NCBI RefSeq assembly: GCF_000688395.1
Contig: NZ_JIAG01000001.1
Coordinates: 124,001 to 188,000 of the forward strand
Direction: 5' to 3'
Length of the DNA: 64,000 nucleotides
Source: Haematomicrobium sanguinis DSM 21259
GTDB taxonomy: Bacteria; Actinomycetota; Actinomycetes; Actinomycetales; Micrococcaceae
Within the stretch, counting starts at the first letter, position 1; the number at the start of each line of letters is the position of its first letter. Positions 12,853 through 62,720 of the stretch are shown piece by piece. The notes under the pieces are model-generated. The model was given only the letters and a program-made list of their open reading frames with translations. It was not told the origin of the DNA and did not search any database. The position numbers were made by a program, and so were the translations under genes.

Positions 12853-12990
12853 ACATCCATAGTAGAACCAAAATCGACGAAAATCAATTCGAGAGGGTGA
12901 CTCCTTGGTGAAAATCCTTTTCATCGCGCGATCCCCCAATCGACGCAGCTCGAACCAGAACCCCCACTCCCCTCCCCTCCCCTCCGCGGT

Positions 12991-13050: not shown

Positions 13051-13164
13051 GCGCGCGCTACGAGCGGACAGACTGGCTCGCGGAAGATGGTTTCGGGGGT
13101 GACAGAGACCGCACGCCGCCGATTTCTCAAACCGGAATCTTCACTGGTAAAGTATTTCCTCGTT

Positions 13165-32234: not shown

Positions 32235-32290
32235 AATCCCCAAGCCTATCGCCGCAACCGCGCACCTCCCGCACCGCTCTTCACCGCCGT

Positions 32291-32350
32291 TCATCCGCCA
32301 GTTACTTTTTCATCCGGCAATTGCGGCATGAAAACGCAATTAGCGGATGA
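32291..32350. repeat. 60-bp palindromic repeat, family A, copy 2
   Basis: Arms 32291-32313 and 32328-32350 (four mismatches, ends TCATCCGC / GCGGATGA) with 14-nt centre CCGGCAATTGCGGC. It lies between the cbs start and the end of the EamA gene. Confidence 0.85.
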
Positions 32351-32360
32351 GCGCGGAGAA

Positions 32361-33415: not shown

Positions 33416-33434
33416 CACGCCTTAAAGCTACCCG

Positions 33435-33506
33435 CGTTTCGCATCCCTGTACCGCAAATTACGAGCCGTATATGGCTCTCAAAACGCGGTATGGGGATGC
33501 GAAACG
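33435..33506. repeat. 72-bp palindromic repeat, family B, copy 1
   Basis: Imperfect arms begin CGTTTCGCATCCC and end GGGATGCGAAACG, with GAGCC / GGCTC at the loop. Copy 2 is at 41894-41962. It lies 10 bp downstream of the MalG-like gene stop. Confidence 0.8.
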
Positions 33507-33516
33507 AGGGAAGGGG

Positions 33517-39275: not shown

Positions 39276-39338
39276 TCGCGAGTTGCCATGTACAACGCTT
39301 TCGCCTGCGCCATACGCGTTGCATATGGCAACTCGCGA
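39276..39338. repeat. Intergenic inverted repeat, arms 23 nt
   Basis: Arms TCGCGAGTTGCCAT...CAACGC (39276-39298) and their complement at 39316-39338, two mismatches, 17-nt loop. It lies between convergent xylB and mtlD and could act as a two-way terminator, but the stem is long for that. Confidence 0.75.
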
Positions 39339-40947: not shown

Positions 40948-40968
40948 CCCCGCTCCCCCTTCCGCCAC

Positions 40969-41028
40969 TCATCCGCTAATTGCGTTTTCATCCGGCAATT
41001 GCGTCATGAAAATGCAATCAGGGGATGA
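40969..41028. repeat. 60-bp palindromic repeat, family A, copy 3
   Basis: Arms 40969-40991 and 41006-41028, centre CCGGCAATTGCGTC. It lies in the divergent intergenic region, right after the mtlD operators and 31 bp before the hydrolase start. Confidence 0.85.
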
Positions 41029-41059
41029 ACCGCGGTCGGGGAGCGGGGAGAATGGTGGC

Positions 41060-41893
41060 ATGGACGCGACCCGAACGCTCAGCGAACGCAACATCGGCAC
41101 CAGCGGCGGCGCTCTGCACCTTTACGAGTGGATGCCAAGCGAGCGTTCCGGCACTGAGGCCGTCGCCTTGTTGCTACACGGCGGCCCCGGTCTCTGGTTC
41201 AACCTCGACGACCTTGTGCCGCTTTTGCCGCCCACGCACACCGTGATCGGTTACGACCAGCGCGGATGCGGCCACTCCACAGGGACCGGCCCCTATTCAT
41301 TGGACCAGCAAGTCGCCGACGTCGACACCGTCCGTGCCGCTTCTGGCGCCGAAACCGTGTGCATTCTCGGTCATTCCGCCGGGGCGAATCTGGCTCTTGC
41401 CTATGCCATGACCTTCCCACACCGGGTACGGTCGTTGACCTATCTCAGCGGCACGGGGATCGGCGACTGGCGCCCCGATTACCGCTCCGAAAGAGAGCGG
41501 CGCCTCGGCCCCGAGCGGCTAGCAAGACTCCGCGAACTGGGCCAGCTCGCCACAAGGAACCCGGCGCAAGAGCGTGAGTTCCGCCTGCTTTCCTGGTGCA
41601 CCGATTACAGTGACGTCGAGACCGGGCTCGCCCTCGCCGAGCATGACGCCGATGCGACGTTTGCCATCAACGTGGATGCCAACAAGAGCATTGGCGACCC
41701 CGATTTCTCGCAACTGTCCGCGATCGAGGTGCCTATCGCCGTCGTACATGGGGAAGCCGACCCGCGCCCATACTGGAGCGCGAAAATGCTTGCCGATGCC
41801 CTCCCGAGCGCCACTTTCACCCTCATCCCGAACGCGGGACACAACCCGTGGCGGGAAAACCCGGACGCGACCCGCGCCGCCCTCCTCATTTGA
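41060..41893 (+). CDS. Alpha/beta hydrolase, prolyl aminopeptidase-like
   Basis: 277 residues with HGGPG, VIGYDQRGCGHSTGTGPYSL, nucleophile Ser in ILGHSAGANLALAYA, and the C-terminal His in IPNAGHNPWRENP. The HGGPG and DQRGCGHS pair is typical of proline iminopeptidases (family S33), but substrate is open. ATG 41060 follows GGGGAGAATGG. The stop TGA lies at the edge of palindrome family B copy 2. Confidence 0.88.
   Translation: MDATRTLSERNIGTSGGALHLYEWMPSERSGTEAVALLLHGGPGLWFNLDDLVPLLPPTHTVIGYDQRGCGHSTGTGPYSLDQQVADVDTVRAASGAETVCILGHSAGANLALAYAMTFPHRVRSLTYLSGTGIGDWRPDYRSERERRLGPERLARLRELGQLATRNPAQEREFRLLSWCTDYSDVETGLALAEHDADATFAINVDANKSIGDPDFSQLSAIEVPIAVVHGEADPRPYWSAKMLADALPSATFTLIPNAGHNPWRENPDATRAALLI
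41737..41745 (-). repeat. ACGACGGCG core, GT variant, in the hydrolase
   Basis: Over codons for IAVVHGE; possibly chance. Confidence 0.4.
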
Positions 41894-41962
41894 CATCCCC
41901 GTACCGCACAAATTGAGCCGTGTGCGGCTCTTAAAATGCGGTACGGGGATGCGAAACGAGGG
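41894..41962. repeat. Palindromic repeat, family B, copy 2
   Basis: Arms CATCCCCGTACCGCA (41894-41908) and TGCGGTACGGGGATG (41937-41951), inner GAGCCG / CGGCTC, then GCGAAACGAGGG as in copy 1 at 33435. It joins the stops of the convergent hydrolase and M20 genes. Confidence 0.82.
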
Positions 41963-49244: not shown

Positions 49245-50045
49245 ATGCGCACTTTCCTTCCCCTCACCCGCAAGAACCTTTCCGACACCTGGCGCGGCCT
49301 CGCTGGATGGAGTCTGGCTCTGGCCGCGGCGTGTTTGCTGTACTTGCCGCTCTACCCATCCATGGGTGGCGGATCTCAAATGCAAGCGTTGCTGAACCAG
49401 ATGCCCAAGGAACTTATCAGCGCGATCGGCTATGACAGCATCGGAACCGGCGCAGGATGGACCCAGTCCACGGTCTTCGGGCTGCTCGGATTCGTCCTGC
49501 TGATCATTGCCTCGGTGTCCTGGGGTGCGGCAGCCATTGGCGGCAACGAGGAATCCGGGGCACTCGAACTGACCCTTGCGCACGCTGTGACGCGCACCCA
49601 GGTGGTACTCGAACAAGCCCTCGCGATCCTCATCAAGCTTGTGGTTCTCGGGCTCGTGGTGACATTGATTGTGCTTTCGCTCAATTCTCCGGCCGAACTC
49701 GATCTCAACGTCGGGTACCTGGTGGGAACCGTGGCGCTCTGGCTAGAGCTCGGTTTGCTTGGGGCTTCCGTTGCTCTGCTCTGCGGAGCGGCCACCGGAC
49801 GGCGTTCGGTCGGCATTGCGGGTGGCGCCATCGTGATGATCGGCGCTTACATTCTCAACGCCTTGGGGAACCAGAAATCGGACTGGGATTGGATGCACAA
49901 TCTCTCCCCGTATTCCTGGGTCTTTACCGAAAAGCCGCTCCAAGATGGGCCAAATATGCTCATTGGCTTGGCCCTCTTAGGGATCGCCGCGCTGTCAACT
50001 GCGGGAGCCGCCGTCGTTCTTAACAAACGCGACGTCGGCACCTAG
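49245..50045 (+). CDS. ABC exporter permease, ABC-2 type
   Basis: 266 residues with six hydrophobic segments; ESGALELTLAHAVTRTQVVLEQALAI is a typical ABC-2 permease cytoplasmic loop, and the tail KRDVGT is usual. It starts directly after the ATPase stop. Substrate unknown, perhaps a drug or lipid, given a TetR controller. A full repeat (50009-50021) covers AAVVLNK near the end. Confidence 0.9.
   Translation: MRTFLPLTRKNLSDTWRGLAGWSLALAAACLLYLPLYPSMGGGSQMQALLNQMPKELISAIGYDSIGTGAGWTQSTVFGLLGFVLLIIASVSWGAAAIGGNEESGALELTLAHAVTRTQVVLEQALAILIKLVVLGLVVTLIVLSLNSPAELDLNVGYLVGTVALWLELGLLGASVALLCGAATGRRSVGIAGGAIVMIGAYILNALGNQKSDWDWMHNLSPYSWVFTEKPLQDGPNMLIGLALLGIAALSTAGAAVVLNKRDVGT
50009..50021 (-). repeat. 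Full 13-mer repeat AAGAACGACGGCG
   Basis: Antisense to the ABC permease gene, near its 3' end. Confidence 0.72.
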
Positions 50046-50056
50046 GCGAGCACAAA

Positions 50057-50098
50057 GCAAGGAGCGGACCGGTCCCCACCGGCCGGTCCGCTCCTTGC
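50057..50098. terminator. Bidirectional-type terminator
   Basis: Perfect 16-bp stem GCAAGGAGCGGACCGG (50057-50072) with its complement at 50083-50098, 10-nt loop, between the convergent ABC permease and MFS genes. Confidence 0.85.
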
Positions 50099-50101
50099 CG
50101 T

Positions 50102-51367
50102 CTAGAGGGCTTCGGGCTCGTGCGTGTGGAGGTATTTCCAGCCGAGACCGATCACCAGCGCCGAGATGAGAACGGCGAGCGCGGCGGCGAAGAACGGCAC
50201 GGCAGCGCCGAAGTTCTCGCCGAGTTTCGCGGCCAGGAACGGCGCGACCGCACCGCCCATCCAGCGCACAAAGTTGTAGCCCGCGCTCGCGACCGGGCGC
50301 GGGGCGTCTGAGACGTTCATCGCGAGTTCGGTGTAGAGCGTGTTGTTGATGCCGAGCAGGCCGCCGGAGATGATGACCAGAATGATGACGGCCGTGATGT
50401 TGGTGGTGGCGAAGAGACCCAAGAGCGTCAGGATGATCGCAATGGCGACCAGGGTGCCGACCAGTACCCACGTGGTGCCGAATTTTTGTTGCAGGATCGG
50501 CGCCACCACGACCGACGTGAAGGCAAGCGCGAGGCCCCAGCCGAAGAAGATCGCGCCAATCGCGTACGGGCCGGCATTCAGGATGAACGGGGTGAACGCG
50601 AGGATCGTGAAGAAGCCGAAATTGTAGAAGAAGGCGCTGAAAGCGGCCGAGCGCAGGCCCTTGTGTCCGAGTGCGATCAAGGGGTCGCGCAGCCGGGTTT
50701 TCTTGGCCGGGATGGTGGATTTGGGCAGGAGAGTCAGGCAGGCGATGAATGCGAGCGCCATCAGCACCGCGGTGCCAAAGAACGGGGCGCGCCACTGCCA
50801 GCCGCCAAGCAGTGCACCGAGAATTGGCCCGAGCGAGATGCCAAGACCAAGCGCCGCCTCATACAAGATGATGGCGGTGGTGGTGCCGCCGGATGCCGCG
50901 CCGACAATTACGGCGAGCGCTGTGGCAACGAAGAGCGCGTTGCCCAGGCCCCAGCCGGCGCGGAAACCGACCAGTTGCGCAACCGTGCCGGAGAGCCCGG
51001 ACAGGGTCGCGAAAGCAACGATGAGCGCCAGGCCGATCAGTAGCGTTTTCTTGCCGCCAATGCGGGAGGACACCCAGCCGGTGAGCAGCATTGCAAACGC
51101 GATGACGAGGAAGTAGCTGGTGAAAAGTAGCGATACCTCGGAGGGTCCGGCCTGCAGATTCTCAGCGATGGCCGGCAGAATCGGGTCGACCAGTCCGATG
51201 CCCATAAAAGCGAAGGTCGCGGCGATGGCGGTGGCCCAGACCGCCATCGGCTGCTTGAGCAGGGACTGTTTCTCGTGTTCGAGGACTTCGTGGGGGGTTT
51301 CGGTGTGTGCGGCGTGTGCTGTGTGTTCTGTGTATTCGTGCTCGTTTTCGGTCGCGGTGGCGGACAC
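50102..51367 (-). CDS. MFS efflux transporter
   Basis: 421 residues, about 12 membrane segments after a His/Glu-rich cytoplasmic head (EYTEHTAHAAHTETPHEVLEHE). MFS motif A appears as GWVSSRIGGKKTLLIG and motif C-like GPILGALLGGWQWRAPFF marks a drug:H+ antiporter. The marR gene lies 59 nt upstream on the same strand, so the regulator and exporter probably form an operon. The His-rich head might bind metal; unproven. Confidence 0.9.
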   Translation of the reverse strand: MSATATENEHEYTEHTAHAAHTETPHEVLEHEKQSLLKQPMAVWATAIAATFAFMGIGLVDPILPAIAENLQAGPSEVSLLFTSYFLVIAFAMLLTGWVSSRIGGKKTLLIGLALIVAFATLSGLSGTVAQLVGFRAGWGLGNALFVATALAVIVGAASGGTTTAIILYEAALGLGISLGPILGALLGGWQWRAPFFGTAVLMALAFIACLTLLPKSTIPAKKTRLRDPLIALGHKGLRSAAFSAFFYNFGFFTILAFTPFILNAGPYAIGAIFFGWGLALAFTSVVVAPILQQKFGTTWVLVGTLVAIAIILTLLGLFATTNITAVIILVIISGGLLGINNTLYTELAMNVSDAPRPVASAGYNFVRWMGGAVAPFLAAKLGENFGAAVPFFAAALAVLISALVIGLGWKYLHTHEPEAL

Positions 51368-51426
51368 GGGCGGCTCCCTGTTCTGTATCTAGTGGCGGCG
51401 CGCTCAGTGGCGCCGGCGGGTGCGAG

Positions 51427-51867
51427 TTAGTTTTCGGAAATGGTGTCTTGGAACTTGTCAGACAGGCGCGCGATAGCGCCGCTGGCCCGTTCGAGGGCGG
51501 CGAGGTCGTCGTGGCTCATGGAGCTCAAAACTTCGGCGATGCGTTCGTCGCGCTCGCGGTTGCCTCGGGTGCGCGCCTCTTCACCTTTCGGGGTGATGTG
51601 AATGAGCACCACTCGGGAATCATCGGGGTCAGCGGCTCGCGTCGCCAGTCCGGCGCCGCCGAGGCGTTTGAGCGCTTCGGTGGCGCTTGGCATTTTGATT
51701 CCCATGTGCTTGGCGATCTCGGAGACGCGGACGCCGTCCTCGTGGAGCATGTTCAGAATGCCTAAGTGCGTGGTGGAGAGTTCCATCTCATCGCTCCAGC
51801 GGCGCGACATGTGTACGCCGTGCCGTAAGAAGGCCCTGAGCGTGCTGGCGAGTTCCACATTTTCCAC
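51427..51867 (-). CDS. MarR-family transcriptional regulator
   Basis: 146 residues with a winged helix (TTHLGILNMLHEDGVRVSEIAKHMGIKMPSATEALKRLGGAGLATRAADPDDSRVVLIHITPKGEE), including the DDSR wing of MarR proteins. GTG start 51867; a -10 TATGGT (minus strand, 51874-51879) lies 6 nt upstream. Likely controls itself and the MFS exporter downstream. Confidence 0.92.
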   Translation of the reverse strand: MENVELASTLRAFLRHGVHMSRRWSDEMELSTTHLGILNMLHEDGVRVSEIAKHMGIKMPSATEALKRLGGAGLATRAADPDDSRVVLIHITPKGEEARTRGNRERDERIAEVLSSMSHDDLAALERASGAIARLSDKFQDTISEN

Positions 51868-51882
51868 ACCCCCACCATATAG

Positions 51883-51895
51883 TTAGTTCGCCTAA
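51883..51895. promoter_or_regulatory. Candidate MarR operator
   Basis: TTAGTTCGCCTAA, arms TTAG / CTAA, just upstream of the marR -10. Short and therefore tentative. Confidence 0.45.
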
Positions 51896-51910
51896 ATAAC
51901 CAAATCCCAC

Positions 51911-51984
51911 GCAAATTTAAGCGCCTTTCCCGGTTTTCAGCGGCATGTAGAGCGCTGAAAACCGGGAAAGGCGCTTAAATTTGC
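51911..51984. repeat. 74-bp perfect palindrome, family C, type 1
   Basis: Perfect 32-nt arms (51911-51942 and 51953-51984) starting GCAAATTTAAGCGCC, with 10-nt loop GCATGTAGAG. It ends 1 bp before the cycA stop codon. Same length and same ends as the palindrome at 59951-60024, but a different interior. Confidence 0.92.
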
Positions 51985-51985
51985 T

Positions 51986-53446
51986 TTAGCGGGAGGGGGT
52001 GAGGTGCTTGTGCTTGCCCTTGCGCACGAACGCGAAGTACGCGATCGTCAGGATCGCATACCAGGTCGGCGCCAAGTAGATCGCGATCCGGGTGGACTCG
52101 TCCAGGCCCAGCACCACGAACATTGCCACGAAGAACGCGAGCACCACCCAGCTCATCGCCACACCGGCGGGCATTTTGAACTTGGACTCAGCGTGCAGTT
52201 CGGGCCGTTTCTTGCGGTAGCACAGGTATGCCACCACGATGAAGCCCCACACGGTCAAAAACAGGATCGCGGACACCGAGGTCACCAAAACGAACGCCTC
52301 TCCCACCGAGCCCTGCACGTACAGCAGGACGATCCCGGGGATCAGGCAAATACAGGAGAACAGCAGCGCACGCGCGGGAACCTTACTCGAGGAGAGCTTC
52401 CCGAACAGTTTCGGAGCCTCCTTCTCGGTGGACATCGAATACATGATGCGGGAGGTCGAGAATATGCCGGAGTTCGCACTAGATGCGGCAGAGGCCAAAA
52501 CCACAAAATTTACCAGTCCCGCGGCACCGGCAAACCCAGCCAGCGCGAACATTTCGGTGAACGGGCTCACGTCCCCGGACGCGCGGCTCCACGGCATCAC
52601 CGCCATGATGACAATCAGAGACGCCACATAGAACAACAGCACGCGAATGGGAATCCAGTTGATTGCCCGCGGAAGGTTCTTTTCCGGGTTTTTGGTCTCA
52701 GCGGCAGCGGTACCGGCAAGCTCAATGCCCTGGAACGCGAAGATCGCGATCTGGAAACCGCCCAAGAAACCGAGGAAACCATGCGGGAACATGCCGCCGT
52801 CATTCCACAGGTTTTCCAACGTGGCGCGGTCGCCCGTGTCCGGGGAAACGAAGTTCGTGGCGATCAGCACAATGCCCACGATGACCAGGGCAATGATGGC
52901 AACGATCTTGATCATCGCGAACCAGAACTCGATCTCGCCGAACAGGCGCACCGCCACCAGATTCAGTACCAAGAACAGCAAGATCGCCAAGACCGCCGGC
53001 ACCGCAAGCATCATCGGGTTGTCGCGCAAACCGGGGAACCAATATTCCACATAACCGGTGATCGCCACCAGATCCGCAATGCCGATAATGATCCAACAGA
53101 ACCAGTACGTCCACCCGACCATGAACCCCGCCCACGGCCCGATCAGGTCACCGGCGAAGTCGGCAAAAGTGCGGTAGCCGGAGTTGGAGAGCAGAATCTC
53201 CCCCATCGCGCGCATGACAAAGAAGAGCATGAATCCGATGATCATGTACACGAAAATGACACTCGGTCCGGCAATGGAGATCGTCTTGCCGGAGCCCAAG
53301 AACAGGCCGGTACCGATGGCACCGCCAATGGCAATGAGCTGAATGTGGCGGTTGCTTAAGCCCCGCGAAAGGTGTCCCCCGTTCCCGGAATGTTCGCCGT
53401 GATGCTCAGTTGGCGCGGTGGAGGTCGTCTCGGGGGTCTTGGACAT
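51986..53446 (-). CDS. cycA: D-serine/D-alanine/glycine permease, CycA-like
   Basis: 486 residues, 12 membrane segments, APC superfamily. The start of the fold, LSNRHIQLIAIGGAIGTGLFLGSGKTISIAGPSVIFVYMIIGFMLFFVMRAMGEILLSN, is nearly the E. coli CycA sequence; LVNFVVLASAASSANSGIFSTSRIMYSMS also matches. It imports glycine, D-alanine, D-serine or L-alanine. An N-terminal His/Glu/Gly-rich head is species-specific. Single-gene unit. Confidence 0.92.
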   Translation of the reverse strand: MSKTPETTSTAPTEHHGEHSGNGGHLSRGLSNRHIQLIAIGGAIGTGLFLGSGKTISIAGPSVIFVYMIIGFMLFFVMRAMGEILLSNSGYRTFADFAGDLIGPWAGFMVGWTYWFCWIIIGIADLVAITGYVEYWFPGLRDNPMMLAVPAVLAILLFLVLNLVAVRLFGEIEFWFAMIKIVAIIALVIVGIVLIATNFVSPDTGDRATLENLWNDGGMFPHGFLGFLGGFQIAIFAFQGIELAGTAAAETKNPEKNLPRAINWIPIRVLLFYVASLIVIMAVMPWSRASGDVSPFTEMFALAGFAGAAGLVNFVVLASAASSANSGIFSTSRIMYSMSTEKEAPKLFGKLSSSKVPARALLFSCICLIPGIVLLYVQGSVGEAFVLVTSVSAILFLTVWGFIVVAYLCYRKKRPELHAESKFKMPAGVAMSWVVLAFFVAMFVVLGLDESTRIAIYLAPTWYAILTIAYFAFVRKGKHKHLTPSR

Positions 53447-53607
53447 GGTGCCTTCTCATCGGTGTTGCCTCGACAATGAGGTCCCGCCGGGTTTCAGCGG
53501 GCAACAGCGAACCAATTTACCACCGGGATCGCGCGCCCCACCAATTGCGACAGGGCCGCCCACCACACCCCAACATCACGGTGAGGCACGAGAGAAAGCC
53601 GGGGACA

Positions 53608-53616
53608 CGCCGTCGT
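53608..53616 (-). repeat. ACGACGGCG dispersed repeat, GT variant
   Basis: Intergenic copy continuing TGTCCCCGGCTTTC on its strand, the flank shared with 33403 and 54947. Confidence 0.75.
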
Positions 53617-53633
53617 ACCTCTACGACCGGGAC

Positions 53634-53668
53634 AAAAAAGGAAGGGCCCCGGAGCACCCGGGACCCTT
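53634..53668 (-). terminator. Rho-independent terminator of trxA
   Basis: On the minus strand AAGGGTCCCGG, a 5-nt loop, CCGGGGCCCTT (one G-U pair), then CCTTTTTT: a classic intrinsic terminator 18 nt after the stop. Confidence 0.9.
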
Positions 53669-53685
53669 CACGAAAGCGGGGAAAT

Positions 53686-54057
53686 CTACTCGGCGGCGGA
53701 TTCCTGCTCGGCGATGGACTTGCGGACCTCGTCCATGTCCAGGCCCTTGACGGCCTCGACGAGCTCGGTGAACTGCTGCTTGTTCATCGCGCCAGCGTTG
53801 GAGTAGACGAGGATATTGTCGCGGAAAGCCATGAGGGTCGGGATCGCGGTGATGCCGACCTGACCAGCGAGCGATTGCTCGGCTTCGGTGTCGACCTTGC
53901 CGAAGCGGATGTCGGGGTATTCCTTGGACACTTCGTCGTAAATCGGCGCGAAACGCATGCACGGCTGGCACCATCCGGCCCAAAAATCGACGAACGTGAT
54001 GCCGTCTTCCTGGATGGTTTCGCTGAACGTCTTTTCAGTCAATTCTGTTGTGGACAT
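53686..54057 (-). CDS. trxA: Thioredoxin with CQPC active site
   Basis: 123 residues with thioredoxin fold: ITFVDFWAGWCQPCMRFAPIYDEVSKEYPDIRFGKVDTEAE, cis-Pro in GITAIPTLMAFRD. The dithiol motif is WCQPC in place of the standard WCGPC, which should shift redox potential. The C-terminal extension of about 15 residues is Glu/Ala-rich. AAGGAG lies upstream. Divergent from the PfpI-like gene. Confidence 0.92.
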   Translation of the reverse strand: MSTTELTEKTFSETIQEDGITFVDFWAGWCQPCMRFAPIYDEVSKEYPDIRFGKVDTEAEQSLAGQVGITAIPTLMAFRDNILVYSNAGAMNKQQFTELVEAVKGLDMDEVRKSIAEQESAAE

Positions 54058-54192
54058 GATGTGAGCGTACTCCTTCGGGTCGCGAAAACTCTAGGGGTAA
54101 CGTCGCGGCGCGGTCCGGGTATTCCCGTGGCTGGGGGCTGTGCGCCGGGTCGGACGGGGCGCTTGCCGGGCGGGCGGGTGCGCTTGCCGGTC

Positions 54193-54240
54193 GGGGCGCC
54201 GGGCGGGGCGCCGGACGGGGCGCCGGACGGGGCGCCGGAC
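54193..54240 (+). repeat. 12-bp tandem repeat, four copies
   Basis: Unit GGGGCGCCGGAC repeated four times (first copy GGGGCGCCGGGC) directly upstream of the -10 of the PfpI-like gene. Each unit contains the palindrome GGCGCC. Further degenerate copies of GCGCTTGCCGG lie at about 54150-54192. Confidence 0.85.
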
Positions 54241-54259
54241 ACCCGCTAGGCTGGTGCCC

Positions 54260-54940
54260 GTGGAGAAGCCGCTGAATATTGTCGCCCTGATCTTCCCGGG
54301 AATGACGCAACTCGACCTGACCGGGCCGCTCGAGTTTATTTCGAAGATCCCTGGCGCCCACGTGACGCTCGCTTGGCGCGAGCCGACGCCCATCACCAAC
54401 GATTCCGGATTCGCGATCCTCCCCTCGACGACCTTTGCGGACGCACCGCAGGCGGACGTACTGCTGGTCCCGGGCGGAGCCGGTGTGTTTGACTTCATCG
54501 AGGACGCCGACGTCATCGATTTTGTGCGCCGTCAAGGCACCGGCGCGCGGTTCGTGACGAGCGTGTGCACGGGCGCGTTTTTCCTGGGCGCCGCGGGTTT
54601 GCTGCAGGGCCGGCGCGCCACGACGCATTGGGCCTCGCACGCGCTCTTGGCGCACCTGGGCGCGACCCCGGTTGCCGAGCGCGTGGTGGTGGACGGGAAC
54701 GTGATCACCGGCGGCGGGGTCACCAGCGGCATCGACTTTGGCCTGCGCGTGGTCGCCGAGGTTGGCGGCGAAGCGCTCGCGCGGAAGGTCCAGCTCGCCC
54801 TCGAGTATGACCCGCAGCCGCCCTTCGACTCGGGCGCCGCCCGTGCCGATGACCCGGCGGTTCAGCAGTTGCGCGCGCATTACGTTGAAACGCGTGGGCC
54901 GCGGTTGGCCCGGATCGGTGCCGCGCTTGCGGGGTCCTAG
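54260..54940 (+). CDS. DJ-1/PfpI family protein, isonitrile hydratase-like
   Basis: 226 residues: NIVALIFPGMTQLDLTGPLEFISKIPG, ADVLLVPGGAGVFDF, nucleophile Cys in RFVTSVCTGAFFLGAAGLLQGRRATTHWASH, and TSGIDFGLRVVAEVGGE. This block order is typical of isonitrile hydratase (InhA) and related class-I GATase-like enzymes; true substrate unknown. GTG 54260 was chosen because TAGGCT (54247-54252) lies 7 nt upstream. An earlier in-frame start would translate the tandem repeats. Confidence 0.88.
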   Translation: MEKPLNIVALIFPGMTQLDLTGPLEFISKIPGAHVTLAWREPTPITNDSGFAILPSTTFADAPQADVLLVPGGAGVFDFIEDADVIDFVRRQGTGARFVTSVCTGAFFLGAAGLLQGRRATTHWASHALLAHLGATPVAERVVVDGNVITGGGVTSGIDFGLRVVAEVGGEALARKVQLALEYDPQPPFDSGAARADDPAVQQLRAHYVETRGPRLARIGAALAGS

Positions 54941-54946
54941 GCGCTG

Positions 54947-54959
54947 AAGCACGACGGCG
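54947..54959 (+). repeat. Full 13-mer repeat AAGCACGACGGCG
   Basis: Six bp after the PfpI-like stop; continues TGTCCCCGACTTTCC as at 33403 and 53608. Confidence 0.8.
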
Positions 54960-55057
54960 TGTCCCCGACTTTCCGGGGATGCGCTGGCTTGGCGAGCCGG
55001 TTGCGTGGGCGATTCGGGTGCGCAGGTTACGCGGTTGCGCAGGCGATTTGTTGCGGC

Positions 55058-55417
55058 TTAGGCCGGCTTAGGTGTGCGCAGAATTTTGTCCATCGACTTG
55101 CCCTTGGCCAATTCGTCAATGAGCTTGTCCAGGTAACGAACTTCCTGCATGAGCGGGTCCTCGATATCTTCGACGCGCACCCCGCAGATGACTCCGGTGA
55201 TGAGTTTGCGGTCGGGATTCTTGGTGGGCGCCTCGGCGAAAAAGTGATCAAAGTCCGTTTCGGATTCAAGGGCTTTGTCTAGCTGCTCTTGGCTGTAGCC
55301 GGTGAGCCAGCGGATGATCTCATCCACTTCCGCCCGCGTGCGGCCCTTCTTTTCGGCCTTGGTGAGGTAGTGCGGGTACACGCTGGAGACGGGCATGGTG
55401 TAAATGCGGTGGGCCAT
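55058..55417 (-). CDS. DUF2200 family protein
   Basis: 119 residues matching the DUF2200 pattern: [45 protein letters not shown], then [11 protein letters not shown] and [35 protein letters not shown]. Function of the family is unknown; part of it resembles proteins of the DUF1048/DUF2200 kind found across bacteria. A -10 TAGGCT (minus strand, 55424-55429) lies 6 nt before the ATG. Confidence 0.88.
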
Positions 55418-55557
55418 GTGCTCAGCCTACCGACTCTGGGCGGTATCCGCCGTAGTGGGGTGGGCCGTCGCCGAAGTGGGTCCCTGGGTGCTTCTCCCGC
55501 CGCGCCGGTCGGCCTTGGTGTGGACGCGCAGTGCAGCCGCCCACGGGTTAAATTGCG

Positions 55558-55594
55558 AACGCCCCAGCCAGAACATGCTTCTGACTAGGGCGTT
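55558..55594 (-). terminator. Terminator downstream of tRNA-Tyr
   Basis: A 14-bp stem with two G-U pairs (55581-55594 with 55558-55571), 9-nt loop, directly after the tRNA 3' end. Confidence 0.7.
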
Positions 55595-55599
55595 TGTGG

Positions 55600-55681
55600 T
55601 GGCAGATGAGGGATTCGAACCCCCGTAGGCAATGCCAGCTGATTTACAGTCAGCCCCCTTTGGCCGCTCGGGTAATCTGCC
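55600..55681 (-). tRNA. tRNA-Tyr (anticodon GTA)
   Basis: An 82-nt class II tRNA on the minus strand: acceptor GGCAGAT / ATCTGCC, anticodon stem CTGA(C) with loop CTGTAAA (anticodon GTA), and a variable arm as expected for Tyr. CCA is encoded (55597-55599). Confidence 0.95.
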
Positions 55682-55748
55682 ATAGAGAAACCCGCCTGAG
55701 CGGGCATCTCAACTTTACAGAAGTTCGGGGAGCTTTGCGAATCCGCGG

Positions 55749-56012
55749 CTAGGACTGGCTAATCTGCTTCTCGAGTTGGGCTACAAACTTGTCCGCCTGC
55801 TCCCGGCTCACTTCCCCGCGTGCAACCGCCGCCGCCATCTCGACCTGAACAGCGTTGATGCGCGCCTGCGGACTCACATGCGGTGCCGGAGTGCTCGCCG
55901 CCGCACTTGCTATCGGTGTCATCATGACCCCCGTCATTGACATGGCCGCAAACAAGGTTCCGGTGGCAACTTTCGCAATCCGCACCACGTAGGGACTTCG
56001 ATTCTTAGCCAA
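55749..56012 (-). CDS. Small exported protein of unknown function
   Basis: 87 residues (TTG start with GGAGG 9 nt upstream): a signal peptide, basic head MAKNRSPYVVRIAK then a hydrophobic stretch and likely cleavage after ASA, leaving about 47 residues with a helix of mixed charge (ARINAVQVEMAAAVARGEVSREQADKFVAQLEKQ). The mature part resembles short SHOCT-like or heme-binding-domain fragments, but I cannot assign it. Divergent from yajQ. Confidence 0.72.
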   Translation of the reverse strand: MAKNRSPYVVRIAKVATGTLFAAMSMTGVMMTPIASAAASTPAPHVSPQARINAVQVEMAAAVARGEVSREQADKFVAQLEKQISQS

Positions 56013-56176
56013 TTTCTTCGCCTCCGCTGTAACTGTTTCCGCATCTAGTCTCTCGGTTACACATAGGAGGCAACCCGACGCTACCTTGATGCTTGCTGAA
56101 CAACTTGCCGGGCACCGCTAAGCGACTAGGCTAGGGTGCAGGTTTCCCGGACACACAACCCATGCAAGGAGCAACA

Positions 56177-56665
56177 ATGGCGAGCGATTCCACCTTCGAC
56201 GTGGTGAGCAAGGTCGACAAGCAAGAAGTCTCAAACGCCCTCAATCAGGCGCAAAAAGAGATCGCCCAGCGCTACGACTTTAAGGGTGTCGGCGCGGAGA
56301 TCGATTTCAGCGGCGACAGCATCCTGATGAAGGCAAACTCCGAAGAACGCGTCAAGGCCGTCCTCGACGTCTTCCAATCCAAACTCATTAAGCGGGGCAT
56401 CTCGCTCAAGTCCTTGGATGAGGGCGAGCCGTACGCCTCCGGTAAAGAGTTCCGCCTCGAAGCCTCCATCAAGGAAGGCATTGCCCAGGATGTGGCCAAG
56501 AAAATCACCAAGCTCATCCGTGACGAGGGCCCCAAGTCCGTCAAGGCCACCATCCAGGGCGACGAGCTACGGGTGTCCTCAAAGTCCCGCGACGACCTGC
56601 AAGCGACCATGGCGCTCCTGAAGAATTTCGAGGACGCTGACCTGCAGTTCGTTAACCTGCGCTAG
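56177..56665 (+). CDS. yajQ: YajQ family cyclic-di-GMP-binding/nucleotide-binding protein
   Basis: 162 residues: [41 protein letters not shown] and [29 protein letters not shown] are diagnostic of YajQ/UPF0234. Some members bind c-di-GMP and act with transcription factors in Xanthomonas. ATG 56177 has AGGAG upstream. A -10 TAGGCT (56127-56132) gives a leader of about 40 nt. Overlaps the htpX stop by 4 nt, convergent. Confidence 0.94.
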
Positions 56666-57528
56666 TACTGCGGGCCGCCGGCCATGCCTTCGAGCCGACG
56701 AATGCGATCCTCCATTGCCGGGTGCGTGGAAAACATGCGCTTGAGTTTGCTGCCGAATGGATTCGCAATCATCATCTGCGAAATGTTCACCAGACGCTGA
56801 TCGGCCGGCAGCGGTGCCGCGTTGACGCCAGCCTCCAGTTTGCGCAGGGCGGACGCGAGCGCGAGCGGATCTCCGGTGAGCTTCGCACCGTCTTCGTCGG
56901 CGTCGAACTCGCGAGTTCTACTAATGGCCATCTGGATCAAACCGGCCGCCAATGGCGCGAGCAGTCCGATCAAGATCATGCCGAGCGGGTTGGAGTTGCG
57001 CCGGTCCCCCATGCCGGAAAACATCAGCATTTGCCCCACCGAGGTGATCACACTTGCCACCGCCGCCGCCACGGACCCGGTCAGGATGTCGCGGTTGTAG
57101 ACGTGCATCAGCTCGTGTCCCAGCACGCCGCGAAGCTCGCGACGATCCAATATTTGCAAGATTCCCTGCGTGACGCACACGGCCGCATTCTCCGGGTTTC
57201 GTCCGGTCGCAAAAGCGTTGGGTGACATGGTCGGTGAGATGTAAAGCCTCGGCATCGGCTTACCAGCTTGCTGCGCGAGCTCGCGCACGACCGCATAGTA
57301 TTCGGGTGCTTGCGCCTCGGTGACCTCGACCGCTTGCATGGAGCGAATCGCGATCTTGTCACTGTTCCAGTAGCTGTAAAAGATCGTCCCCACGCTGATC
57401 GCGCCGAATATCCAGATAAAGGCGGAGTTACGCGTTCCGGCCGCAATCAGCCCGCCGATAATGAGTAACAGTCCGGCAAGACTGCCGAACAAGAGCGCTG
57501 TCTTCAGACCGTTATTGTGATTGCGCAT
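56662..57528 (-). CDS. htpX: HtpX-type membrane zinc metalloprotease
   Basis: 288 residues: two N-terminal membrane helices, zinc motif HELMH in [16 protein letters not shown], second ligand Glu in [17 protein letters not shown], and two further hydrophobic segments ([34 protein letters not shown]). HtpX degrades misfolded membrane proteins. ATG 57528 with AAGGAG was preferred over an earlier frame start. 210 bp separate it from divergent furA. Confidence 0.94.
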
Positions 57529-57738
57529 GGCTACTCCTTGAAATCGGACCAGGGGTCGATCGGCGCTTCGGTAGTGCCTCTCGCTCGTCCCTGCGATCAG
57601 CAACGTTCCCTTTAGTGTACGTATCGCCGCGCCCGCAGGTTGAGCAATTCGCCCACCGCGCAAGAGAGCCCCGCCACTCCCAGCAAGTTAGCCACACCTA
57701 ATTATGAATTACTCAGAATACGCGTTTAGGCTGGTGCC

Positions 57739-58203
57739 ATGAGTCACACCCTGCCCGAGCCGACGGTCGCACGCGACTGGCCCGAATCGCTCAAAGTAGC
57801 CGGGTTTAAGGTGACCAAACAGCGCCTAGCCGTGCTACACGCCGTCGAACATCATCCGCACGCCGATGCGGAACTCATCGCCGCCAACTGCCGCGAAACC
57901 CTCCCCGCGCTCACCATTCAGTCGGTGTATACCGTCCTCGCGGATCTGACCCGCGCCGGGCTGGTGCGCAAGATTCAGCCGCACGGCGGCGCGGCGCGAT
58001 ATGAGACGCGCACCAATGACAACCACCACCATGCGGTATGCATTCGGTGCGATCGCATTGTCGACGTCGATTGCGCCGTTGGCCACACGCCCTGCCTCGT
58101 CCCGCAACAGGACACCGGAATGAACATCCTGTTCGCCGATGTCGTTTATCGGGGTGTGTGCGAGGAATGTCAGCGCGAACCATTAGACCTCCCGGTGAAC
58201 TAG
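57739..58203 (+). CDS. furA: Fur-family regulator, FurA/CatR type
   Basis: 154 residues: winged helix ([52 protein letters not shown]), metal site [30 protein letters not shown], and a second CxxC in VCEECQ. Adjacency to katA identifies it as the peroxide-sensing FurA that represses catalase. A -10 TAGGCT (57727-57732) lies 6 nt before the ATG, with an AT-rich TAATTATGAATTA just upstream as possible operator. Confidence 0.93.
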
Positions 58204-58247
58204 CCGGGTCACGTACCAGTCACAGGAAACCCCACAAAAGGAGAATC

Positions 58248-59768
58248 ATGACAGTGCCACGCAGTACTACTCAGTCCGGAGCGCCGGTTGCCTCGGATGC
58301 GCATTCGCAGACCGTTGGCCCGGACGGCGTTGCCGCGCTGACCGACCACTACTTGGTGGAAAAGCTCGCCCAGTTCAACCGCGAGCGGGTTCCCGAGCGC
58401 GTTGTGCACGCCAAGGGCGGCGGCGCCTTCGGCACCTTTGAAACCACCAACCCGGAAATCGCGAAGTACACCAAGGCTGCACTGTTCCAGCCCGGTGTCA
58501 CCACCGATATGCTCATCCGCTTCTCCTCGGTCGCCGGCGAATCCGGCTCGCCCGACACCTGGCGCGACCCGCGCGGCTTCGCCGTCAAGTTCTACACCTC
58601 CGAGGGCAATTACGACCTGGTGGGCAACAACACCCCGGTGTTCTTCATCCGCGACGGCATTAAGTTCCCGGACTTCATCCACTCCCAGAAGCGCCTGCCC
58701 GGCTCCAACCTGCGCGACGCCGACATGCAGTGGGACTTCTGGACCCTCTCCCCCGAGTCCGCACACCAGGTCACCTGGCTCATGGGCGACCGCGGCCTGC
58801 CCCGCTCCTGGCGCACCATGCAGGGTTACGGCTCCCACACCTACCTGTGGACCAACGCCGAGGGCGAGAAGTTCTGGGTCAAGTACCACTTCCGTTCCCA
58901 GCAGGGCGTCGAGGGCCTGTCCAATGACGAGGCCGCCGAGCTCGCCGGATCCGACGGCGACCACCACATCCGCGATCTCTACGAGGCCATCGAAGAGGGC
59001 AACTTCCCCAAGTGGGAACTCAACGTGCAGGTCATGCCGTACGAGGACGCGAAGACGTACCGTTTCAACCCGTTTGACCTGACCAAGATCTGGCCGCACT
59101 CGGACTACCCGCTGATCCCGGTTGGCATGATGACGCTGAACAAGAACCCGGAGAACTACTTCGCGGAGATTGAGCAGGCGGCGTTCGCCCCGTCCAACTT
59201 TGTGCCCGGCATTGGCGCCAGCCCGGACAAGATGCTGCAGGCCCGCATCTTCTCCTATGCGGACGCACACCGCTACCGCGTGGGCACCAACCACGCGCAG
59301 ATCCCGGTGAACCAGGCAAAGGGCACCGAGGTGCACAACTACTCGCAGAACGGTGCCGCGCGCTACCACTTCAACGCGCCGTCGGTGCCGAATTACGCAC
59401 CGAATTCGCTGGGCGGCCCGGCTGCCGACGAGTCGCTGTTCGCCCCAGGCGGCTGGGAGAATGACGGCGAGCTCACCCTCGCTGCCGCCTCTCACCACCC
59501 CGAAGATTCCGACTTCGGCCAGGCCGGAACGCTCTACCGCGATGTCTTTGACGGTGCCGCACGCGCCCGTTTCCTGGAGACCATCACCGGTGCCGTCGGC
59601 GGCGTGCAGAATGCGGACATCAAGGAGCGCGCGATCCAGTACTGGACCAACGTCGACTCCGATTTGGGTGCCAAGCTGCGCGCGAACCTCGGCGCGGGCG
59701 ATGCTGGTTCCGCCGATGGCGCGGTGCGCCAGGCTGGCGAGACCGAGTTCGATCAAGCGCACGCCTAA
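58248..59768 (+). CDS. katA: Catalase (clade 3, heme)
   Basis: 506 residues: catalytic His in [15 protein letters not shown], Asn in [14 protein letters not shown], and proximal heme Tyr in [17 protein letters not shown]. Breaks down hydrogen peroxide to water and oxygen. AAAGGAGA precedes ATG 58248, 44 nt after the furA stop, so furA-katA is an operon as in mycobacteria and streptomycetes. Gly/Ala-rich C-terminus ([10 protein letters not shown]) is loose. Confidence 0.96.
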
Positions 59769-59793
59769 AACGCTTACCGCCGCCCGCTTCTGT

Positions 59794-59850
59794 CGAGTCG
59801 GCACGTTTTCCGCGATAGGCACGGTTTATAGCGGAAGAGGTGCCGACTCG
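59794..59850. repeat. Nested inverted repeat after katA
   Basis: Outer arms CGAGTCGGCAC (59794-59804) and GTGCCGACTCG (59840-59850), inner TTCCGC (59808-59813) with GCGGAA (59831-59836). Possible terminator, but without T-run. Confidence 0.7.
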
Positions 59851-59893
59851 GCGCCCGGTAGCGGGTGCGGCGGGTGAGTAAGAAGCACGACGA

Positions 59894-59921
59894 CGCCCCT
59901 CGGCTTAATTGCCGAGGGGCG
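59894..59921. terminator. Hairpin terminator near the katA end
   Basis: CGCCCCTCGGC (59894-59904), loop TTAATT, GCCGAGGGGCG (59911-59921). It starts inside AAGCACGACGACG (59883-59895), a one-base variant of the dispersed 13-mer. Confidence 0.65.
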
Positions 59922-59950
59922 CCTTCGCGTCGGGTAACCACCCCACCCCC

Positions 59951-60024
59951 GCAAATTTCATGGCCTCCCGCACGTTTCATGGCCTCCAATAGCCATGAAA
60001 CGTGCGGGAGGCCATGAAATTTGC
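59951..60024. repeat. 74-bp perfect palindrome, family C, type 2
   Basis: Perfect 33-nt arms (59951-59983, 59992-60024) starting GCAAATTTCATGGCC, loop CTCCAATA. It abuts the TAA of the serine hydrolase gene. Same total length and ends as 51911-51984, different interior. Confidence 0.92.
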
Positions 60025-61197
60025 TTAGGAGGGGAGGGTGGACTGGAGGCGGACTAGGCGCTGATCCAGTTGCTGTCCCGTTGGGTCTAGGAACATGCGT
60101 TGACTGATGTAGGCGAACGCGATTCCCGATTCGGGGTGCGCAAACCCGGCGCGTCCACCCATTCCGTAATGGCCGTAGGATCCTTCCCCCATCATGGTCG
60201 AGGTCCCCACCCCGTCCAATTCAAAACCGACACCCCAGCGCGGCTTTTCCTGCGGCGTGCCATCTGGAAGAGGCGGGCGCTCCATGTCCGCGGTCCCCAA
60301 TGAACGGGCGTTCTCCCGCGTCGTATCGGAAATCAGTTGCACTCCATCAACCTCGCCGAGGGTGGCCGCATACATCTTGGCAAGCGAGTAGGCATTGGTG
60401 CTGCCGTTGGCCCCGGCGAGAGACGCCGCCCGAAATTCGCGAGTATTCACGAAAGCGCGCCGCGAGTTGGCCTCGAAAAGATCCATGAGCTGTTCAAAGG
60501 AGCGCACGCTCGCCACCATTTCGGGCGGCAGTTGCGCCAATGTCTCCTCGGGAACGTGCGGCGGCAGTTGCAGTGCGGGATAGGTATTGGGCAAGTACCG
60601 CGAGTCTTCTGATTCCGGCAGACCGACCCAAAGATCGAGGCCGAGGGGAGACGAGATATGTTCTTGGATGTACTCGCTAATCCCCTGCCCGCTCACCCGC
60701 TCCACGACGTGCCCGACAAGGGTCCCGAAAGTCACTGGGTGGTAATTGAAGATGGTGCCCACCGGGTATTGCGGCGCGCTCTCAGCGAGAATCTTTTCGG
60801 CGGAGCCCGGCGTGAAAAACGAGTCAACCGGGCCATCGAGATACGGTAGAGCCGCACGGTGCTGGGCGATATCGCGAACGGTCACCGCTTCCTTGCCCGA
60901 AGCTGCGAACTCGGGCCAGTACCGTGCCACCGGCGCATCGAGATCCACCTGGCCGGCATCGACCAGTTGCAACAGCGCCACCGTCGTCACACCTTTACTG
61001 GTCGAGAATCCGGTTGTGACGCTGTGTTCTTCCCAGGCACGCCCGGATTCGGGGTCGGTGCCCGCCCAAAGATCTAACACCGGTTTTCCGTGCTGAAAAA
61101 TAGCGAGCGAGGCGCCATCATCCAAGCCCTCCTGTTGGAAGGCAAAAAACTCATCGGCAGTAGCCTGAAACTGAGGTTCAACGAATCCTGGAGTCAT
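60025..61197 (-). CDS. Serine hydrolase, beta-lactamase/esterase EstB type
   Basis: 390 residues of the class C beta-lactamase-like family: nucleophile in GFSTSKGVTTVALLQLVDAGQVDLD (SxxK), FNYHPVTFGTLVGHVVERVSG (Tyr of YxN-type motif), and GHYGMGGRAGFA near the C-terminus. Most such proteins are esterases or peptidases. A -10 TAGATT (minus strand, 61204-61209) lies 6 nt before the ATG and a palindromic operator follows upstream (61226-61247). Confidence 0.9.
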   Translation of the reverse strand: MTPGFVEPQFQATADEFFAFQQEGLDDGASLAIFQHGKPVLDLWAGTDPESGRAWEEHSVTTGFSTSKGVTTVALLQLVDAGQVDLDAPVARYWPEFAASGKEAVTVRDIAQHRAALPYLDGPVDSFFTPGSAEKILAESAPQYPVGTIFNYHPVTFGTLVGHVVERVSGQGISEYIQEHISSPLGLDLWVGLPESEDSRYLPNTYPALQLPPHVPEETLAQLPPEMVASVRSFEQLMDLFEANSRRAFVNTREFRAASLAGANGSTNAYSLAKMYAATLGEVDGVQLISDTTRENARSLGTADMERPPLPDGTPQEKPRWGVGFELDGVGTSTMMGEGSYGHYGMGGRAGFAHPESGIAFAYISQRMFLDPTGQQLDQRLVRLQSTLPS

Positions 61198-61225
61198 AGA
61201 ACTAATCTATGCCCATAAACCACGC

Positions 61226-61247
61226 CGTGTTACTGCCAGGTAACACG
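61226..61247. promoter_or_regulatory. Palindromic operator before the serine hydrolase gene
   Basis: CGTGTTAC-TGCCAG-GTAACACG, perfect 8-bp arms, at about the -35 of the leaderless promoter. Style of TetR-family operators; the regulator is not encoded nearby. Confidence 0.65.
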
Positions 61248-61258
61248 TTTCGGCAATG

Positions 61259-61297
61259 TTTTACTGAGCGGTTTTACTCAGCGGTTTTACTGAGCGG
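61259..61297 (-). repeat. 13-bp tandem repeat at the fprA 3' end
   Basis: Three copies of CCGCTCAGTAAAA (middle one CCGCTGAGTAAAA) on the minus strand. The first copy supplies the last codon region and stop TAA of fprA; the others repeat the stop in the same way. Confidence 0.85.
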
Positions 61298-62720
61298 CGG
61301 GCGCAGACAGCGATGCCCGGGAAATCTCTGTCATCTCCTCGCGCGGCACCACCTTGACGCGCTCGCGGGTCACGCCCTGAGTGGCCGAGAATTCCTCGCC
61401 GAGGCGCTTCTCATGCGCGTCCAGCGTCAACCAGCCGTCCCACGTCGTGTACGGAATCCCGCGCTCTTCGAGGACATCCACAATCGCGGACTCCTCTGGA
61501 GCTTCGGCCAGGGCAAGCGTGGTGCGATCCTCCAGAATGCAACCAATGGTTTCCAGCGCATCGCCCTTGGTATGACCAATCAAGCCGACAGGGCCGCGCT
61601 TGATCCACCCCGTCGTATACAAGCCCGCGATATGCTCTCCGCTCTCGGTGACCACACGGCCGGCGACATTCGTGATCACGCCGCGTGCGCCGTCGTACGG
61701 TAAATCGGCGAGCGGGGAACCAAAGTAACCGATCGCGCGGTAGACCGCTTGCACCGGGTAATCAATCATTTCTCCGGTGCCGCGCACACCGCCGGCGCCA
61801 TCGAGTTCGGTGCGCTCAAAACGCATCGAGGACACCTTGCCATCCTCGCCGTGGATTTCCACCGGGCTGTGCAGGAAGTGCAAGTGGAGCCGGCGCTTGA
61901 CCGGGTCCGGTGCGCGCTCGGCGAGGTCCTCGTCTTGTTCGGCAACCCAGTTGGTGAGGGTGCCGACCATGGTCTTGACCTGGTTGTTGGTCTTGATTAG
62001 TTCATCGGAGGCTTCGTCAAAATCGAAGTCTTCCGGGTAGAGCACAATGTCCACATTGGGCGAATGGGAGAGTTCGCGTAGTTCCAGCGGCGTGAATTTC
62101 ACCTGAGCGGGGCCGCGGCGGCCGAAGATGTGCACGTCGGTGACCGGGGACTCCTTGAGCACCCGGTACACGTCGTCCGGAATCTCGGTCACAAGCAGGT
62201 CATCGGCGTGCTTGGAGAGAACGCGCGCCACATCCAGAGCCACATTCCCGTTGCCGATCACCGCAATCTCGCGGGCTGTGAGGGGCCACTCGCGGGACAC
62301 GTCGGGATGACCGTCATACCAGGAGACGAAGTCCGCACCGCCGTAGGAGCCCTCAAGCTCGATTCCGGGGATGTTGAGGTCGGCGTCCTTGATGGCGCCG
62401 GTCGCGAAAATGATCGCGTCGTAATGCTTTTGCAGATCTTCCAGGCTGAGGTCGGTGCCGTAATCGACGTTGCCGAAGAAGCGGATATCGCCACGGCCCA
62501 GTACCTTTTCCAGCGCGGTAATGATGCCCTTGATACGCGGGTGATCCGGCGCGACGCCGTAGCGAATCAGGCCAAACGGTGCCGGGTAACGGTCAAAAAG
62601 GTCGATGGAGACCTCGAAGTCTCGATCCGCCTTGGTCAGCAGGTCTGCCGCGTACACGCCGGCAGGTCCGGCACCAATGACAGCGACGCGCATGGGACGA
62701 TCGGTCGAAAATTCAGACAC
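61287..62720 (-). CDS. fprA: FAD-dependent ferredoxin--NADP+ reductase, FprA type
   Basis: 477 residues, adrenodoxin reductase-like: FAD loop RVAVIGAGPAGVYAADLL, PFGLIRYGVAPDHPRIKG, NADP loop EIAVIGNGNVALDVARVLSK and IFGRRGPAQVKFT, and GWIKRGPVGLIGHTKGDALETI. It passes electrons between NADPH and ferredoxin, for instance for P450s or iron-sulfur assembly. GTG start 62720 with AGGAA upstream. An ACGACGGCG core lies at 61688-61696. Confidence 0.95.
   Translation of the reverse strand: MSEFSTDRPMRVAVIGAGPAGVYAADLLTKADRDFEVSIDLFDRYPAPFGLIRYGVAPDHPRIKGIITALEKVLGRGDIRFFGNVDYGTDLSLEDLQKHYDAIIFATGAIKDADLNIPGIELEGSYGGADFVSWYDGHPDVSREWPLTAREIAVIGNGNVALDVARVLSKHADDLLVTEIPDDVYRVLKESPVTDVHIFGRRGPAQVKFTPLELRELSHSPNVDIVLYPEDFDFDEASDELIKTNNQVKTMVGTLTNWVAEQDEDLAERAPDPVKRRLHLHFLHSPVEIHGEDGKVSSMRFERTELDGAGGVRGTGEMIDYPVQAVYRAIGYFGSPLADLPYDGARGVITNVAGRVVTESGEHIAGLYTTGWIKRGPVGLIGHTKGDALETIGCILEDRTTLALAEAPEESAIVDVLEERGIPYTTWDGWLTLDAHEKRLGEEFSATQGVTRERVKVVPREEMTEISRASLSAPAAQ
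61688..61696 (-). repeat. ACGACGGCG dispersed repeat, GT variant, in fprA
   Basis: Coding-direction copy over YDGARG codons. Confidence 0.5.

Follow-up and report, generated by a model that had tools for sequence, protein, structure and literature searches.

A dispersed family of 74-bp palindromes at gene 3′ ends in Haematomicrobium sanguinis, with a possible REP-like role

The palindromes at positions 51911–51984 (element 1) and 59951–60024 (element 2) of the 64,000-nucleotide stretch analyzed here, hereafter the window, belong to a family (F1) of dispersed 74-bp hairpins that share a fixed plan of four sequence boxes and lie nearly always at the 3′ end of a gene, often with hardly any other DNA between two convergent genes. 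In our best reading, to which we assign as a whole a probability of about one half, they would be REP-like extragenic palindromes without a RAYT transposase that serve as 3′ boundaries, with arms homogenized by template switching and with loss of the SbcCD nuclease as the permissive condition.

A sequence-only reading had singled out the pair, and its description of their places, total length, perfect arms (32 and 33 nt) and common ends (GCAAATTT/AAATTTGC) is correct; the arms enclose loops of 10 nt in element 1 and 8 nt in element 2. Both were said to touch the stop codon of a minus-strand gene, which holds for element 2 (stop codon at 60025–60027) and is off by 1 nt for element 1 (51986–51988). 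The further claim that the interiors are unrelated must be withdrawn: aligned in register, the two are identical at 46 positions out of 74, of which 30 fall among the 58 of the interior, and because four boxes are common to both at the same positions, the interiors are related. Element 1 carries the boxes TTTAAG and TTTCAG (subtype A) and folds as RNA with a minimum free energy of −58.6 kcal/mol, and element 2 carries TTTCAT twice (subtype B) and folds at −65.4 kcal/mol. Element 1 is flanked by the end of a minus-strand amino-acid permease gene (51986–53446; the best model, a D-Ser/D-Ala/Gly transporter, matches slightly below its cut-off) and, on its other side, by a minus-strand gene for a MarR-type regulator (51427–51867). 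A plus-strand catalase-like gene (58248–59768; below the cut-off of the HPII model) converges on element 2, whose other end touches the stop codon of a minus-strand gene for a serine hydrolase of the esterase/beta-lactamase family (60025–61197). Ten hairpins in the window score at least 14, and three first-order shuffles of it contain none. A chance origin was rejected, as no comparable hairpin appeared in the three window shuffles or in one shuffle per sampled stretch, and so was a known RNA family, since the window yields just three tRNAs at Rfam gathering thresholds.

The genome (G000 in our set) comprises 2.93 Mb in 27 contigs, the window being part of contig 1. For a cystathionine beta-synthase encoded in the window, Arthrobacter and Sinomonas supply most of the best named matches (72–78% identity for those ranked highest), which places the genome probably in the Micrococcaceae. 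The proposed search for GCAAATTT-N58-AAATTTGC returned 14 exact elements. With the interior relaxed to N(43–73), so that 59–89 bp were allowed, all 14 matches were exactly 74 bp and a reversed control gave none. A covariance model built from the 14 exact elements (E ≤ 1) gave at least 69 matches, counting both strands, at no fewer than 35 places, with 150 of 1282 candidates scored; because of this selection the family may be larger. These 35 places divide into 27 F1 members and eight elements with other core sequences, which are excluded from all F1 counts. The members align without gaps, are 74 bp in 27 of 27 cases and end in GCAAATTT or variants of it. The sequence-only reading had staked its case on the existence of other such elements in the genome, and 14 exact copies and at least 27 aligned ones bear it out on this point. 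Outside the genome, the F1 model matched none of 58 relatives, a large set searched with stricter filters and holding no second genome of the genus, and nothing in genome_contigs, where near records may be left out. Viral contigs contained no match for three family patterns. A plasmid or phage origin was likewise set aside, with no match for element 1 in plasmids or for element 2 in phages.

The four boxes stand at fixed positions in F1 and in a second, 62-bp family, F2 (core TTCATCCGCTAATTGCGTT), following the pattern TTTCAK N13 TTTCAK N14 MTGAAA N13 MTGAAA; F1 itself divides by box into a TTTAAG/TTTCAG and a TTTCAT subtype. Each arm of F1 and F2 is therefore readable as two tandem 19-nt units, a direct repeat within the inverted repeat. 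Self-identity of the arm at a 19-nt shift is 0.63 for F1, 0.71 for F2 and 0.44 for a third family, F3, and at other shifts it is 0.11–0.33, up to 0.44 and up to 0.43, respectively. F3 (core TTTCGCATCCCCGTACCGC) follows the F1/F2 register loosely, with the outer box shifted and the inner box variable. Further families emerged from the window and a 400-kb sample of the same genome: F4 (60 bp, with identical core spacing in 6 of 6), F6 (57 bp), F7 (60–61 bp), F8 (61 bp) and others. The window contains 62-bp F2 elements at 12990–13051, which shows the F1 four-box register, 32290–32351 and 40968–41029, 74-bp F3 elements at 33434–33507 and 41886–41959, a 61-bp F8 repeat at 39277–39337 and a 57-bp F6 repeat at 59794–59850 that shares the convergent gap with element 2. 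A further F2 element lies at L092:1390. We also note that two or three different palindromes are stacked in single intergenic gaps (L092:9640–9886, L066 from 3000 and window positions 59794–60024), and that F4 (for example L092:9640–9699) and F7 have TGTAGC close to their ends, which is reminiscent of GTAG-tagged REPs, with no RAYT gene found.

With genes called by a simple codon-usage script, the 35 model places comprise 16 between convergent genes, 17 between tandem (co-directional) genes and two between divergent genes; sampled gene gaps of the same genome comprise 68 convergent, 244 tandem and 67 divergent. The distance from F1 to the gene end is 0–1 nt at 20 of 38 ends and between −10 and +16 nt at 34 of 38, the two F1 places between divergent genes being left out of this count. 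Those two (L069:4128–4201 and L071:3000–3073) are the only F1 copies between divergent gene calls; either they are true exceptions or the genes were called wrongly there. Among 13 convergent pairs there are 11 whose stop codons have just the element and at most 21 nt of other DNA between them. It is mainly because the gaps of these pairs can fit no other terminator hairpin that we assign F1 a putative 3′-boundary role. Each element could act in both directions at the RNA level, such that a transcript arriving from either side would end in, or be trimmed to, a highly stable hairpin protecting the end of the mRNA. Predicted folding energies across F1 run from −26 to −65 kcal/mol.

The neighboring genes examined encode, among others, malate synthase, an RsmD-like methyltransferase, an AMP-binding enzyme, a glutamate 5-kinase-like protein and an adenylosuccinate lyase-like protein. 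They are ordinary, varied and unrelated, and a link to gene function was rejected. The corresponding ends of purB and proB were compared in 13 and 14 relatives, respectively; the rows read on the correct strand, which alone were used, have different hairpins or none. At L071, the proB end adjoins an F1 element that faces a small convergent ORF, and several relatives have an ATG frame, presumably proA, within about 70 nt after this gene; the operon at proB thus seems to be broken in this genome. At L063:2970–3000, the C-terminus of purB departs from that of its relatives, several of which end in ..LVDHL.., and the changes leave the end of the coding sequence rich in C immediately ahead of the element.

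Such close spacing to stop codons bears on two readings. A hairpin 0–1 nt past the stop codon would be expected to lie partly under the terminating ribosome, which counts against a boundary acting on RNA. It could also be a brake on translation, in that a hairpin placed directly behind the stop codon would stall the last ribosome and lower gene output; this is a live rival because, in E. coli, stalled ribosomes and reduced translation have been reported where a REP lies within 15 nt of a stop codon (PMC12306157). The 20 gene ends at 0–1 nt are what such a brake would call for, but the unrelated functions of the neighboring genes reveal no common need for one, and we consider this explanation highly improbable.

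Could the elements simply be amplified ordinary terminators, with arms made perfect by compensatory change under selection for RNA pairing rather than by copying? Their 3′-end position would suit this, as would the location between convergent genes of most hairpins sampled in two relatives (8 of 10 in G001 and 9 of 13 in G010). Pairing statistics are also favorable, with standard pairs in 90.0% of cells and changes on both sides in 126 cells versus 57.0 in shuffles. In the boxes, mismatches are no lower within than between elements (0.93 versus 0.81 and 0.67 versus 0.58), so that box pairing follows from family conservation alone. Decamers downstream of F1 average 15% T and 56% G, and four or more T occur in just one of 54. 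A pattern scan of positions 50000–61500 found no terminator-like site at either element, its 8-nt loop limit excluding the full stem of element 1. Because no U-tract was found, F1 elements are not standard intrinsic terminators. The hairpin between convergent genes is a feature shared with bidirectional Rho-independent terminators, but F1 differs from these in having no T-run on either side and a conserved box sequence, and its stem exceeds the 15–22-bp hairpins of most sampled relatives. Together with the spacer mismatches described below, which are tolerated in 11 of 27 elements and follow a two-state rather than a graded pattern, these observations lead us to regard amplified terminators as quite unlikely.

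For the favored reading, transcript release would probably be Rho-aided, given the C-rich, G-poor stretch just upstream and the lack of a U-tract; a Rho gene is present in the genome. Over the 20 nt or so running into F1 from both sides, C averages 54% and G 13% (26 of 27 elements, the flank group labeled convergent including one divergent place), and C falls to 36% at 20–30 nt and 29% at 30–50 nt. Within the window, this composition is seen in the G-rich flank of element 1 (51985–52004, plus strand), which is the C-rich end of the minus-strand gene, and in the C-rich left flank of element 2 (59931–59950, plus strand). C makes up 49–55% of the flanks of F2, F3, F4, F6, F7 and F8, and 19% of those of F5. 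At 12 tandem sites, however, the mirrored bias is also found on the side that ends no gene (G 48%, C 11%). This symmetry argues against a simple Rho-site reading and is easier to reconcile with a cause at the DNA level than with Rho sites. Specific pairing of C-rich with G-rich flanks was rejected, as the two flanks of one element pair no better than flanks swapped between elements. One DNA-level alternative is a device between convergent units, either a cruciform or a site for a hypothetical nucleoid or barrier protein, that includes the dyad-symmetric C/G flanks. The fixed spacing of the four boxes and a flank bias of about 20 bp per side that fades by 30 bp both speak for such a device; against it, the box sequence differs between subtypes and between genera, and we think it very improbable.

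Evidence on how the arms came to be alike is found in the 11-bp spacer. The spacer is identical between the arms in 13 of 27 elements, where random pairing within subtypes predicts 1.6 (maximum of 8 in 5000 pairings); it has one mismatch in three elements and 3–8 mismatches in 11. The distribution is two-state, and the unlike spacers differ at least as much as spacers of different elements do (mean 3.98). Arm-to-arm correction, one of three causes offered by the sequence-only reading, is supported by this pattern. Selection for a long perfect duplex, another of the three, is not: because 11 of the 27 elements have 3–8 mismatches among 11 spacer pairs, the perfect duplex does not seem to be under steady selection, and stem perfection is not under strong selection. 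Spacers AAACTCACG and CTCCCGCACG, taken from unlike pairs, reappear as identical pairs in other elements. For 16 of 27 elements, one arm has a closer match in some foreign half than in its own partner, which is weak by itself given 52 available foreign halves. The spacer pattern is what single-step copying of one arm onto the other would leave, together with an occasional mixing of halves.

Template switching is an established means of homogenizing the arms of inverted repeats (PMC8604942, PMC8794818), making them identical in one step and inverting the loop, or spacer (PMC8604942, PMC7202029). We propose that switching during replication keeps or makes the F1 arms identical, with one arm copied onto the other all at once; elements with identical halves would therefore be expected beside elements with unlike halves. 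Arms identical within and different between elements, as in the 13 of 27, are the mark of such correction, and 11 of 27 are not corrected. The likeness to template-switch-corrected quasipalindromes extends to both one-step identity and loop inversion; unlike in known cases, the process would here work on a family of dispersed repeats, and converted members would be visible alongside unconverted ones. In F2, the 14-nt loop at 12990 and 40968 is inverted relative to that at 32290 and L096:9959, a pattern that template switching would leave, although the end markers are single bases and the signal is correspondingly weak.

A selfish miniature mobile element is another explanation to be weighed. 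Here, the boxes would bind some recombinase or transposase, or the single-stranded hairpin form would be bound, and gene 3′ ends would be safe harbors. Near-identical copies are dispersed at an exact length, several families of this kind occur together in the genome and are stacked within one gap, and the 19-nt box plan occurs in two genera with different box sequences, as would be the case for a co-evolving DNA-binding enzyme. On the other hand, none of 26 elements has a target-site duplication of 4–8 bp (one each was found at 2 and 3 bp), and no larger element with F1 ends was seen: 15-nt end matches with at most one mismatch correspond to 74-bp elements, except for five lone matches. Two of these five were examined, one being inside a gene and the other without a surrounding hairpin. 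IS or MITE ends were rejected on the same findings. No Y1/RAYT transposase was found in the genome; RAYT (PF01797) gave no match in G000 while a control search matched in 5 of 14 genomes, and among 37 genomes of the family there was one weak, broken match, in G021. Spacing of 0–1 nt from stop codons, with only 2 of 35 places in divergent gaps, is also tighter than a safe harbor requires. We therefore hold the mobile-element explanation to be rather unlikely.

Among known systems, F1 works most like REP elements (GTAG/CGTC-tagged), BIMEs and REPINs, which are described as dispersed extragenic palindromes found for the most part downstream of genes, where the ORFs on either side are convergent or co-directional (PMC3733652). 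F1 shares this location, with 33 of 35 places convergent or tandem by our own gene caller. It differs in size (74 bp versus 20–40 bp), in ends that lack the GTAG/CGTC tag, in the missing RAYT gene and in having two 19-nt units per arm on a fixed plan. Since size, tag and RAYT all fail to match, we do not class F1 as REP, and prefer to speak of REP-like extragenic palindromes. Stem-loop sequence families (SLS; 92 families in 40 genomes) are likewise repeated intergenic stem-loops (PMC2267715), but F1 departs from SLS as described in that report by the length and perfection of its arms, by a box plan that more than one family shares and by the proposed link to SbcCD.

Two important questions for the final step of our reading are (i) do the relatives that lack the nuclease have more long palindromes and (ii) is the box plan found in them. 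For the first question, SbcD (TIGR00619) was the subunit by which SbcCD status was judged, and it is missing or below cut-off in three of 37 genomes of the family: G000, G018 and G035, the last having a weak match where its congener G005 has a full one. The idea came from G000 and G018, and the prediction for G035 was set down before its DNA was examined. Hairpins were scored as +1 per match and −2 per mismatch with a loop of up to 30, and relatives mostly contain ordinary ones of 13–22. Hairpins scoring at least 25 number 10 in 464 kb (G000), 7 in 500 kb (G018) and 3 in 100 kb (G035). With SbcD present, there are none in G001 (140 kb), G010 (120 kb), G019 (140 kb), G030 (100 kb) and G024 (100 kb) and one in G025 (100 kb). 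Pooled, the three SbcD-lacking genomes, which are the densest three of the nine, have 20 in 1064 kb versus 1 in 700 kb for the other six (conditional binomial p = 0.0004, or 0.003 without G000). By genome rank, p = 0.012. Shared ancestry is ignored in all these values, and the idea had come from two of the three genomes. Ordinary hairpins (at least 13) differ less, with 147 in 1064 kb and 64 in 700 kb. At least one of the three long hairpins of G035 resembles an ordinary terminator, and SbcD-bearing G025 has four hairpins of at least 20 in 100 kb. SbcD-lacking genomes of other families (G037, G039 and G043) have 1, 0 and 0 hairpins of at least 25 per 100 kb and lend no clear support; G049, which lacks SbcD and is very fragmented, was excluded from the census beforehand.

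In E. coli, SbcCD is reported not to target an interrupted palindrome of 85 bp during replication (PMC3315005), and the minimum stem for cleavage is given as 8–16 bp (cited in PMC3733652, where homo- and heterodimer forms of REPs are also discussed together with SbcCD). The literature searched, mostly outside subscription journals, held no match for such elements or for a link to SbcCD in natural genomes. We consider the association between SbcD loss and long palindromes to be suggestive only; loss of the hairpin nuclease in this lineage may let long perfect palindromes persist and multiply, and this is the weakest step of the proposal.

For the second question, the 500 kb of G018, a different genus, contain eight elements of a class I, eight of a class II near 61 bp and two of a third kind, and 17 of the 18 lie outside divergent gaps. 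Class I has a 19-nt self-similarity of 0.67 and boxes (GAAACAGTG, GAGTTCGCTA) unrelated to those of F1. The period is the same and the boxes are unrelated; the 19-nt plan thus recurs between genera while the box sequence turns over. Class II look-alikes, judged by eye, occur in G025, G024 and G035. Elsewhere, a 107-bp palindrome of Sanguibacter gelidistatuariae (L168:1709–1815) has repeated CGA(A/G)CTCGTGA boxes, possibly the same plan in another family, and several Rhodococcus genomes (L163, L165, L188, L199) have recurrent hairpins near this locus with GTGCGCCTTTT/GTGCACCTTT-type ends.

Bacterial genomes are normally thought to purge long perfect palindromes. This genome has dozens of them near stop codons; they fall into several families, of which at least two follow one exact plan. 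For the Micrococcaceae more widely, we advance only tentatively, and with some doubt, the idea that SbcCD loss opened the way for distinct gene-end elements with a four-box plan of 19-nt period, sequence turnover between genera and copies that alternate between converted (identical halves) and chimeric (unlike halves). The converted and chimeric members together would be a rare in-genome record of arm copying. If the proposal is true, these genomes are a natural experiment that ties the hairpin nuclease of a genome to its palindrome content; if the SbcCD association holds, the natural limit on palindrome length would be directly testable, both by comparison of sister genera and by adding or removing one nuclease.
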